From Thermodesulfovibrio yellowstonii DSM 11347 (GTDB lineage: Bacteria; Nitrospirota; Thermodesulfovibrionia; Thermodesulfovibrionales; Thermodesulfovibrionaceae): DNA of 64,000 nt. Shown here in pieces: positions 3,451 to 57,615 of this stretch. A model generated the notes under the pieces. That model saw only the letters and a program-made list of their open reading frames with translations. It had not been told where the DNA came from and searched no databases. The stretch is from positions 744,001 through 808,000 of the forward strand of contig NC_011296.1 in NCBI RefSeq assembly GCF_000020985.1, written 5' to 3'. The translations under genes were made by a program, and so were the position numbers. Positions within the stretch are counted from its first letter, which is position 1. Each line of letters opens with the position of its first letter.

Positions 3451-3486
3451 TTATCAAAAACAGAATCTTTCAAAGAGGAGGAATTT

Positions 3487-3660
3487 ATGAAGAGGCTAAG
3501 AGATTTTTTAAACAGATTTTGTGATTATATGGCTGCTATTTCCTTTGCCGAGGCAGGAGAGTTTGATACAGCAAGAGAAATTTTAAGAGAGACAAACAGA
3601 GATAGACAGATAAAAAGACAGCGGACTACACAAGTAAAAAGATTTCAGATGAGAGCTTAA
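3487..3660 (+). CDS. 57-residue protein with the DYMAAISFAEAGEFDTAR segment
   Basis: I place the start at 3487 (after GAGGAGGAATTT); the open frame upstream would begin before the sigma-54 transcript. The protein has an N-terminal amphipathic part, then DYMAAISFAEAGEFDTAR (residues 13-30), then a highly basic tail ending KRFQMRA. The same 18 residues open the 139-residue protein at 5857, encoded by an identical 53-base stretch. No known domain is recognised. It is driven by a sigma-54 promoter, and converges on the receiver-Lon gene. It may be an adaptor, a regulator or a substrate of that protease, but this is inference. Confidence 0.75.
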   Translation: MKRLRDFLNRFCDYMAAISFAEAGEFDTAREILRETNRDRQIKRQRTTQVKRFQMRA

Positions 3661-5821: not shown

Positions 5822-5856
5822 TTTTCTTTTAGTGAGGTTTTCAAGGAGGGAATACG

Positions 5857-6276
5857 ATGAGAATAAAAGATTTTATGAACAAGTTTGATGATTATATGGC
5901 TGCTATTTCCTTTGCCGAGGCAGGAGAGTTTGATACAGCAAGGCAGATTGCAAGAAAGAAGACTAAAATTTTAGTCATTTGCTCAGGTTCAGAAGAAGAT
6001 AACTATGCAATAAAGTATGCTGTGAGTTTAGCAAAAAGAGTTCAGGGAGTCGTAAAAATTCTTGTTAATGGAGGGAGTTCAAAAAATTTAATAGAACAGC
6101 TTGGGGGAGGAGTTTTTTATGAAATTTTAAGTTTCAGTGATTTTTTAGAAGTTGCTCGTTACATTGAAGAATCTGACTTGATAATCATAGCAGATGAAAA
6201 AATGTTTGATGAAATCAAACTTAGGAATATCCCATTGATTTTTGTTCAGCCAAATAAAACTTTATTAGGAGGATAA
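5857..6276 (+). CDS. 139-residue protein: shared N-terminal segment plus USP-like domain
   Basis: A clear AAGGAGGG site precedes the start. Residues 1-30 repeat the layout of the 57-residue protein, with DYMAAISFAEAGEFDTAR at 12-29. The rest (about 34-139) begins TKILVICSGSEEDNYAIKYAVSLAKRV and looks like a reduced alpha/beta (universal-stress-protein-like) domain: alternating beta strands and helices, with a serine-rich loop (GGSSKN) near residue 70. No nucleotide-binding GxxG-type motif is clear. It is the first gene of a probable operon with the next membrane protein (one base apart) and is driven by a sigma-54 promoter. Function unknown. Confidence 0.8.
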   Translation: MRIKDFMNKFDDYMAAISFAEAGEFDTARQIARKKTKILVICSGSEEDNYAIKYAVSLAKRVQGVVKILVNGGSSKNLIEQLGGGVFYEILSFSDFLEVARYIEESDLIIIADEKMFDEIKLRNIPLIFVQPNKTLLGG

Positions 6277-6583: not shown

Positions 6584-6720
6584 GGTCATCCCGAGGGCTT
6601 TGCCCGAGGGATCTCCTTCGCTAAAGATTTGAGGAGATTCCTCGTCGCTTACGCTCCTCGGAATGACAGAGGGGGTGTATCTTGAAAGGTGAGAATGTTT
6701 TTTCTGGGAATGACAGAGAG
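6584..6720. repeat. Dispersed palindromic repeat, intergenic copy 1
   Basis: The block holds GGGTCATCCCGAGGG and its partner GCCCGAGGG, then GGAGATTCCTCGTCGCTTACG with CTCCTCGGAATGACAGAGGG, then a degenerate GGGAATGACAGAG. The same core occurs at 23.4 kb and inside hypF at 56.1 and 57.3 kb. It interrupts the otherwise tight gene row between the 96-residue protein and the permease. The remaining bases up to 6810 are AT-rich and hold only the permease ribosome binding site. Confidence 0.8.
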
Positions 6721-23327: not shown

Positions 23328-23513
23328 TTGGTCATTCCGAACACTCTAACGGGTGTGAGGAATCTGACCCGTAGGGTCTATCCTGAGGCTAAGGTCCCCC
23401 CTTAAATCGGAAAGAGGAGATTCCTTGACGCTAACGCTCCTCGTAATAACACTTTTACTGTCACCCTGAGCATAAGCGAAGGGTCTCCTCCTTTGAAGGC
23501 TTGGAATGACCAA
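23328..23513. repeat. Composite dispersed repeat with inverted ends
   Basis: TTGGTCATTCC (23328-23338) and GGAATGACCAA (23503-23513) are perfect 11-base inverted ends of a 186-base block. Inside are GGAGATTCCTTGACGCTAACG with CTCCTCG, matching the copies at 6.6 and 56.1 kb, and GTCACCCTGAG with CGAAGGGTCTCC, a second subtype. It is non-coding in all frames and looks like a MITE or several fused palindromic units. The rest of 23217-23643 is AT-rich with nothing I recognise. Confidence 0.75.
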
Positions 23514-55122: not shown

Positions 55123-57615
55123 ATGAAACGCCTTCATATTGAAATCAAGGGAGTTGTTCAGGGAGTAGGCTTCAGACCATTTGTTTATAATCTTGCACAA
55201 CATCTTAATCTAAAAGGCTTTGTTACAAATACCTCAAAAGGTGTGACAATTGAGATTGAGGGTGAAAGAGTTGAAGAGTTTATTAGTAAACTTCAAAATA
55301 ATCCTCCTCCGCTTGCTAAGATTTACTCAATTAAAAAAACTGAGCTTTCACCAAACAATTATAAAACCTTTGAAATAATTGAAAGTATTGACGAAACAGG
55401 ATTTACCCATGTCTCAGAAGATGTCTCCATATGTGAAGACTGTCTGAGAGAGCTTTTTACTCCTACTGACAGGAGATATCTCTATCCCTTCATAAACTGC
55501 ACAAACTGCGGTCCCCGATACACAATCACCATGAAAGTTCCCTATGATAGACCAAACACAACGATGGCTGTGTTTAAAATGTGTCCTGAATGTTTAAGTG
55601 AATACAAAGACCCAAGTAACAGAAGATTTCATGCTCAGCCCAATGCATGCCCGGTCTGTGGTCCTCAGGTAAGGCTTTTTGTAAAGGAAGGCAGTGCTTT
55701 GAATGAAATTGAAAATCCAATTCCAGAAGCCATTAGGGTCATAAAAGAAGGTAAGATTTTAGCAATAAGAGGACTCGGAGGTTTTCATCTCTGCTGTGAT
55801 GCAAGAAATGAAGAGGCAGTTAAAGAATTGCGGAAGAGAAAAAAAAGAAGCAACAAGCCTTTTGCACTCATGTCTCCCTCTGTTGAGGCTATTGAAAAAT
55901 TCTGCTTTGTAAGCGATGAGGAAAGAAAAATTCTTATATCTCTCATGCGTCCTATAGTTCTATTAAGAAAAAAGCCCCAGTGCAATCTTCCAGAGGCATT
56001 AGCACTAAAGAATGCCTATCTTGGCTTTATGTTGCCGTACACACCACTTCATTATTTGCTGTTTTATTATCCAGCTAAAGTAGGAGATTCCTCGTCGTTT
56101 TCACTCCTCGGAATGACAGAGGAGGGTAGGAGGGGATTCCTCGTCGTTAACGCTCCTCGGAATGACAGTAAAACAGATACTACTCAGCCTTACAAGGACA
56201 ACTCAGCCCTTCGGACCTCGGACTTCAGTCTTCAGCCTCATTTTGATTGCCTTGTTATGACAAGTGGAAACATCTCTGAAGAGCCGATTATTACAAAAAA
56301 TGAAGAGGCTCTTGAAAAACTCAACAATGTGGCAGATGCTTTCCTCATACACAACAGAGAAATATTCATGAGAGTGGATGACTCTGTGGTAAGAGAGCTT
56401 GAAGGCAAAATCTATTTCATAAGAAGGACAAGGGGATTTGTTCCAAAGGCAATACCTTTAACGGAGGAGTTGCCCGAAGTTATGGGTGCTGGTGCTGACC
56501 TGAAGAATACTTTTACCCTGATAAAATCAGACTATGCCATAATGAGTCAGCATATTGGTGATATGGAAAACCTTGAAACAATAGAGTTTTATGAGGAGGT
56601 TTTAAACAATCTCAAATCCGTTTATCGCACAGAGCCATCGGCAGTTGGGCATGACCTTCATCCCATGTATTTTTCAACAAGCTGGGCAAAGGAGTATGCT
56701 GAAAAAAAATGCATTCCTGCTTTTGCCCTTCAGCATCACTACTGCCATATTGCCTCCTTAATGGCAGAATACGGACTGAATGAGCTTTTTGGCATTGCCT
56801 TTGATGGCACAGGCTATGGAACAGACGGCACAATCTGGGGAAGTGAGTTTTTATACTGCACTGTTAAGGATTTTCAGAGACTTGCTTATCTAAAACCTAT
56901 AAGCCTTCCAGGAGGTGAGAATGCTATAAAAGAATGTTCAAGAATTGCTCTTTCTTTGATTGATGATACTTTTGGTGAGGATATGGATTTGATAAAGAAA
57001 CTGCCTCTTTATAAAGTAGTTTCAGAAGAAAAAATCAGGCAAATACTTAAAATAAAGAGACTTTTTCAATTCAGTCCCCTTTCATCAGGTATGGGAAGAC
57101 TTTTTGATGGTGTCTCTTCCCTGATTGGTGTATGCCATTACAACACCCATGAAGCAGAGGCAGCAGTAGCCCTTGAAAGTCTAATAGAGCAGGGCACGGA
57201 GTTTTCTGAGAGGGACTGCTACCCCTTTGAATTAGTGAACTCCCTTGAGGGAGAGGCTTTAGTTATAGACTACAAGCCAATGATTAGAGAGATTGTAAAG
57301 GATTTTTTAAAATCTGAAGCCAAGCCGATTGGTCATTCCGAGCGTAAGCGAGGAATCTCCTTTATTTCATGGAAATTTCACAATACAATCGTAAAAATTA
57401 TCCTTGAGCTCACAGAGCATTTCAGAGCAAAATTTGGCTTTGATGCAGTTGGCTTAAGTGGAGGAGTGTTCCAGAATGCCTATTTGATAAGGGAAACCAT
57501 AAAAGCTTTAAAAAAACTTGGCATAAAACCTCTTTATCACGTAAATGTTCCCAGCAACGATGCCTGCATATCTCTTGGACAAGCTTACATTGTTGGGAAG
57601 AGAATTAAAACTTAA
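55123..57615 (+). CDS. hypF: Carbamoyltransferase HypF for [NiFe]-hydrogenase maturation, with two repeat insertions
   Basis: 830 residues; family members are about 750-770. Domains: acylphosphatase (1-90, KGVVQGVGFRPFVYNLA), two zinc fingers (about 105-185, four C-x2-C pairs: CEDCLREL, CTNCGPRY, CPECLSEY, CPVCGPQ), YrdC-like (about 200-395), and Kae1-like (about 430-830, HHYCHIASLMAE, AFDGTGYGTDGTIWG). It makes the CN ligand of the hydrogenase Fe from carbamoyl phosphate. The DNA at 56083-56168 and 57331-57365 belongs to the dispersed repeat family and adds about 50 residues (near 318-375) and about 11 residues (737-747) in frame. It is the only hyp gene in view. Confidence 0.95.
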   Translation: MKRLHIEIKGVVQGVGFRPFVYNLAQHLNLKGFVTNTSKGVTIEIEGERVEEFISKLQNNPPPLAKIYSIKKTELSPNNYKTFEIIESIDETGFTHVSEDVSICEDCLRELFTPTDRRYLYPFINCTNCGPRYTITMKVPYDRPNTTMAVFKMCPECLSEYKDPSNRRFHAQPNACPVCGPQVRLFVKEGSALNEIENPIPEAIRVIKEGKILAIRGLGGFHLCCDARNEEAVKELRKRKKRSNKPFALMSPSVEAIEKFCFVSDEERKILISLMRPIVLLRKKPQCNLPEALALKNAYLGFMLPYTPLHYLLFYYPAKVGDSSSFSLLGMTEEGRRGFLVVNAPRNDSKTDTTQPYKDNSALRTSDFSLQPHFDCLVMTSGNISEEPIITKNEEALEKLNNVADAFLIHNREIFMRVDDSVVRELEGKIYFIRRTRGFVPKAIPLTEELPEVMGAGADLKNTFTLIKSDYAIMSQHIGDMENLETIEFYEEVLNNLKSVYRTEPSAVGHDLHPMYFSTSWAKEYAEKKCIPAFALQHHYCHIASLMAEYGLNELFGIAFDGTGYGTDGTIWGSEFLYCTVKDFQRLAYLKPISLPGGENAIKECSRIALSLIDDTFGEDMDLIKKLPLYKVVSEEKIRQILKIKRLFQFSPLSSGMGRLFDGVSSLIGVCHYNTHEAEAAVALESLIEQGTEFSERDCYPFELVNSLEGEALVIDYKPMIREIVKDFLKSEAKPIGHSERKRGISFISWKFHNTIVKIILELTEHFRAKFGFDAVGLSGGVFQNAYLIRETIKALKKLGIKPLYHVNVPSNDACISLGQAYIVGKRIKT
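56083..56168. repeat. Two dispersed-repeat units inside hypF
   Basis: GGAGATTCCTCGTCGTTTTC with CTCCTCGGAATGACAG (56083-56119) and GGGGATTCCTCGTCGTTAAC with CTCCTCGGAATGACAG (56132-56168) are near-identical 37-base units 49 bases apart. Because 49 is not a multiple of three, they are read in two frames (GDSSSFSLLGMTE and GFLVVNAPRNDS), both open. A third repeat-like block follows (ACTCAGCCCTTCGGACCTCG). Confidence 0.9.
57331..57365. repeat. Dispersed-repeat unit near the 3' end of hypF
   Basis: GGTCATTCCGAGCGTAAGCG followed by AGGAATCTCC matches the opposite orientation of the family and reads GHSERKRGIS in frame, between a linker (FLKSEAK) and the conserved SWKFHNTIV. Confidence 0.88.

Follow-up and report, generated by a model that had tools for sequence, protein, structure and literature searches.

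The RPEs of Rickettsia are dispersed repeats that lie in frame inside conserved genes and place their residues in exposed loops (PMC3767692, PMC10969869). RPE sites in orthologues hold other inserts, and RPE-4, RPE-6 and RPE-7 share an ATGAC motif (PMC3767692, PMC10969869); whether such sites are hot spots for elements of different origin or contain one diverged element was left undecided (PMC3767692). The CGTC-tagged REPs have CGTC or TGTC ends, A-T and T-A as first stem pairs, a stem of 8-9 bp, a loop of 4-5 bp and a short CCA tail, and come without a dedicated transposase (Di Nocera 2013, PMC3733652). These REPs are mostly intergenic and sometimes in genes, the latter including RPE-4 and RPE-6 of R. 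conorii, and in Xanthomonas recB different intragenic REPs lie at about one site in two species (PMC3733652). In-frame intragenic repeats are already known, from the Rickettsia RPEs and some REPs. Discussion of protein-coding repeats has centred on Rickettsia, where a reduced genome and common descent obscure their cause. Short heptanucleotide tandem repeats (STRR-like) are known mainly from cyanobacteria. Repeat inserts in HypF are not described in the open-access literature that we searched, and within that literature a HypF hot spot for several families and a gene-dwelling palindrome family in free-living Nitrospirota are new.

The window analysed here is a stretch of 64,000 nt from the genome of Thermodesulfovibrio yellowstonii DSM 11347, and at 55123..57615 on its plus strand it carries an intact hypF gene of 830 codons for the carbamoyltransferase HypF. 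The 830 aa product is matched as a full HypF by TIGR00143 (809 bits; cutoff 466), and all five of the five Pfam HypF domains were found in it. The dN/dS of the HypF core was 0.138 against species G004 and 0.125 against species G003, and at about 0.13 hypF is therefore under purifying selection. A sequence-only reading of the window had proposed that repeats entered hypF at two places with the frame unbroken, that conserved motifs continue on either side of them, and that HypF may still work. The first two points hold, with three units inside the intact frame and all HypF domains and motifs retained; as to the third, the core dN/dS argues for what is probably a working enzyme, and a full-length HypF product is likely to be made and to be active.

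The first insertion lies in the YrdC-like domain, in a loop of residues 318-376 (56074..56250, plus strand) that runs from the helix ending PLHYLLFYYP to the strand LVMTSGN. Repeat unit 1 (56082..56125, minus strand; residues 320-335) is read as GDSSSFSLLGMTE, its structured strand, TGTCATTCC.., being the minus strand, and unit 2 (56131..56174, minus strand; residues 337-351) is a direct copy of unit 1 that is read as RGFLVVNAPRNDS. Their starts are 49 nt apart, so that the two are read in different frames, both of them open, as had been described. Unit 1 is common to G004 and G003; G004 has the identical two-unit arrangement, and G003 has a different unit in the place of unit 2. The trailing part of the loop (56175..56241, plus strand) had been called repeat-like; it has no other copy anywhere in the T. 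yellowstonii genome, though the congeners G012 and G009 (L063 and L065) have period-7 arrays at this position. The loop comprises 59 residues versus 14 in G014, the nearest insert-free congener, which corrects the earlier estimate of about 50 added residues to 45, or to approximately 56 relative to the median of other phyla (64 versus 8 residues, with other alignment anchors than for 59 versus 14). The further unit that had been placed near residue 740 is an inverted copy in a second loop (unit 3; 57332..57360, plus strand), which covers residues ~737-746, is read as GHSERKRGIS before ISWKFHNT, and has the orientation opposite to that of units 1 and 2.

An AlphaFold model of the protein (62 homologues) had a mean pLDDT of 91.7 and matched the HypF crystal structure 3VTH with a TM of 0.95 by target. 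The only segment with pLDDT below 50, residues 321-363, falls within the first insert, and in solved HypF structures this position is a turn of a few residues. Unit 3 lies between two helices in the model, with a small dip in confidence. This predicted disorder, together with the short turn of the solved structures, is consistent with the earlier idea that the inserts are surface loops.

The repeat is dispersed through the genome, as judged from search matches and stretches of sequence. It gave 53 blastn matches in T. yellowstonii, and for a 32-base pattern, allowing 3 mismatches, there were 24 matches in the genome and none with the reversed-pattern control. With a wider pattern, GTCATTCYGA..GARGAATCT, the counts of exact copies were 73 in T. 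yellowstonii, 79 in G007 and 122 in the congener G012 (controls 0). The hypF units share up to 91% identity over 44 nt with intergenic copies. Within the window, a further copy (6632..6675, minus strand) and a diverged one (23415..23458, minus strand) are each without a covering ORF of at least 100 aa. Among about 46 repeat places examined in the genome, two are the hypF sites, one is in metG and one in nuoC, and at the remainder no ORF longer than 129 aa covers the copy. The metG copy (L151, ~367.6 kb) is in frame between the catalytic and anticodon domains, and the nuoC copy (L152, ~1,097.8 kb) is in frame in the N-terminal tail; a genome search for the repeat in other genes had been suggested, and these two are what it yielded. 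Genes are thus mostly avoided by the element, hypF being the main exception.

On its structured strand the element reads TGTC-ATTCC-GA-[inner hairpin, variable]-GA-GGAAT-CTCC. The outer arms ATTCC/GGAAT are constant, and the inner stems vary by subfamily with their complementarity kept. A canonical copy has 5 bp, G.A pairs, 1 bp, G.A pairs, 2 bp and a 4-nt loop, and other subfamilies have longer inner stems. Stem pairing in two length classes was 96% and 97%, with 15 and 13 cells, respectively, changed on both sides; the pair counts of both classes exceeded all shuffles and slides, although they lean towards structure because part of the rows had been chosen by a pairing filter. The hypF-type unit, in contrast, folded no better than shuffles, which leaves a strong hairpin for the hypF units unsupported. 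Hence the word "palindromic" in the sequence-only reading is only partly apt for them: the 5-bp arms are there, along with tandem G.A mismatches, and the fold is no better than that of shuffled sequence.

Compared with the CGTC-tagged REPs, most copies of the element likewise begin with TGTC on the structured strand, the first pairs are A-T and T-A with invariant ATTCC/GGAAT arms, and a dedicated transposase is lacking as far as searches for PF01797 show. The element differs in its outer stem, which has 5 Watson-Crick pairs and tandem G.A mismatches, in its tail (CTCC, no CCA), in its direct tandem in hypF and in its host phylum, Nitrospirota, which is unlisted in PMC3733652. It also differs from the RAYT-associated GTAG REPs, having no GTAG tag and residing in a genome without RAYT. 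No PF01797 transposase was found in T. yellowstonii or in G012 with its 122 copies, and of 20 transposase loci in family-D-rich relatives none was flanked by family D; RAYT-driven movement was rejected on these grounds. In G012 the GTC-type elements often stand as inverted pairs about 32 bases apart.

The likeness to the Rickettsia elements, which had been proposed at the outset, is one of behaviour. The inserts are in frame in conserved genes (hypF, and also metG and nuoC) and in loops, and orthologues carry others at the same site. RPE-4, RPE-6 and RPE-7 have the ATGAC motif in common, and GGAATGAC is present in the hypF units as well. The resemblance fails in the length of the unit, ~30-45 bp for the hypF type versus 100-150 bp for RPEs, and in the peptide: the hypF units, being read in three frames or orientations, have no single conserved peptide, unlike coding RPEs. 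T. yellowstonii, moreover, is a free-living thermophile.

We then compared the first loop among relatives. Its length ranges from 7 to 63 residues in 72 HypF genes of the order, and the median is 8 residues in 70 loci that are mostly from other phyla. The long loops are repeat-like, and their inserts belong to several kinds: GTC-type elements (G000, G003, G004, G007 and G097, those of G007 and G097 being related-arm elements with ATTCT and ATTGC), C/G-rich palindromes (G028, G048 and G087), CGCAGGCTAAAGCCTGCG (G025 and G087), and tandem period-7 or period-8 arrays (for example L111, L108, L139 and L143). Further copies of the loop insert were found in the same genome for G003, G007, G097, G028, G087, G048, G039 and G025. 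One Chloroflexota genome gave 23 matches to its own loop insert, and the longest loops sampled in that phylum are also repeats. The inserts of G024, G045, G080, G036, G094 and G060 gave only self-matches in their own genomes and that of G019 one weak further match, so these seven long loops were not counted as dispersed repeats. On a FastTree phylogeny of 100 HypF proteins at least 19 changes of insert class were needed, with the classes assigned by us. The sister species L061 and L082 have unrelated elements in the loop, and four close species have an octamer array, a palindrome and two heptamer arrays. Taken together, these sequence comparisons indicate that the first HypF loop is an insertion hot spot for several repeat families of clearly different origin. 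It differs from the recB case in its many families, in holding non-palindromic arrays as well, and in its taxonomic range, an order plus at least one further phylum. The period-7 arrays that many relatives have in this loop resemble STRR-like repeats, but lie inside coding sequence. The second hypF site has been reused too, with other repeat-like inserts in G002, G010 and G041. As a separate observation, repeat-like inserts at HypF residues ~284, 427 and 528 (L111, L078, L097, L099, L108, L139) include NPPLSKGG-type peptides and heptamer arrays.

We consider it probable that a dispersed REP-like element inserted at two loops of hypF, twice side by side at the first, and that what is seen today is survivorship in permissive loops. 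Insertions that break the frame or fall in structured parts would be lost, and those that keep the frame in tolerant loops would survive and, once translated, form a disordered loop on a functional enzyme. HypF would have a small number of such tolerant loops, foremost the turn between the PLHYLLFYYP helix end and LVMTSGN, in keeping with the clustering of long inserts at few loops of the protein, and the identical filter could have let unrelated palindromes and tandem heptamers into the first loop in other species. The insertion process itself may well be nearly neutral. On average 3.9 of the repeat's 6 frames are open, and random sequence of equal composition has 3.8; a design for coding therefore need not be assumed, and adaptation of the unit to coding was rejected. 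Two facts weigh against survivorship: the element is rare in genes here, and yet hypF was entered at two sites, and the inserts are more conserved than the rest of the gene, as described below.

The same distribution could arise if the elements, or an enzyme that moves them, preferred a target sequence in hypF and the loop were incidental. Such a preference at the DNA level would account for the excess at the first loop, where 19 of 80 rows have at least 10 extra residues, the most of any position (15 at residue 427 and a few at residues 284, 528 and ~730-740), and for the position of the second unit, which directly adjoins unit 1 in T. yellowstonii (unit 2) and in G003 (a different unit), as if elements attract others. 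However, the loop is common to unrelated families, which argues against a single targeted insertion enzyme, and these include tandem heptamers, which to our knowledge do not transpose. Several further HypF loops have also been entered, and the flanks vary between species. We therefore regard a DNA-level preference as unlikely.

Between close species the inserts are more conserved than the rest of hypF, albeit with small numbers. When window positions 56074-56240 were compared with L056 and L057, 3 of 159 insert nucleotides were changed versus 161 of 2313 outside the insert (p 0.005). Against G003, unit 1 differed at 1 of 43 positions versus 335 of 2274 elsewhere in the gene (p 0.009). Plain neutrality does not predict this excess. 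It would be expected if the inserts were kept for an effect of DNA or RNA structure on hypF, such as mRNA stability or translational pausing, with the residues a by-product; the compensatory stem changes in the wider element family and the very stable hairpins of family D point the same way. Within hypF, however, units 1 and 2 are in the orientation without the G.A-stabilised hairpin and unit 3 is in the other, and the presence of both orientations in a single mRNA speaks against a common hairpin function. The shuffle-like folding of the hypF units, the heptamer arrays in the first loop, which form no hairpin, and the many species without any insert likewise oppose a structural role, to which we give a still smaller chance than to a targeted site.

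Decay of hypF in this lineage, of which the inserts would be early signs, is very improbable: a long disordered insert does lie within a catalytic domain, but the frame has stayed open through three insertions, every domain and motif is kept, and dN/dS is 0.13 after insertions common with G004. Chance or low complexity as the source of the repeat resemblance has practically no probability left, being refuted by the control counts of 0 and by the identity to intergenic copies; HypF homologues, including congeners that match well elsewhere, moreover lack the insert residues that a chance match would have had them share.

Gene residence extends beyond hypF in the order around Thermodesulfovibrio. 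A family of C/G-rich palindromes with the reading NPPxPPxxKGGxGGF lies in frame in many conserved genes of G087, G028 and G025. All 20 copies sampled in G087 (L169-L188) and all 9 in G028 (L209-L216, L218) fell inside long frames, samples that had been chosen by similarity to copies themselves coding. When copies were sampled by DNA pattern alone, 9 of 10 were in genes in G025 (L344-L353) versus 2 of 10 in G032 (L334-L343; Fisher p 0.005), and gene residence therefore differs by lineage and does not follow from composition alone. The tested host frames have matches in curated families such as valS, mutL, addA and NAD synthase, and G087 has 137 pattern copies (control 0). We lean slightly towards a wider reading, in which short repeats of several unrelated families give rise to protein loops throughout the genome in this order, the palindrome lying mainly in genes in some lineages and outside them in another, with the HypF loops as shared hot spots. 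These families would form a free-living counterpart of the Rickettsia coding repeats, with many families and turnover between sister species.

Since sister species of free-living bacteria differ at one site, the choice between hot spot and common origin can be decided from sequence. Whether such inserts are tolerated or useful is testable in HypF, an enzyme with a known structure and an assay. Repeats can be a source of new protein loops, and in this way enzymes can acquire long disordered ones.

Two further observations concern repeats elsewhere in the T. yellowstonii genome. Identical repeat copies are spaced by exactly 51,203 bases at ~1,497-1,600 kb (1497051, 1548254 and 1599457; 1523481 and 1574684), a pattern that points to a recent tandem duplication of a large segment or to an effect of the assembly. 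In the window, positions 3486-3592 and 5853-5959 form a 107-base direct repeat with 84% identity.
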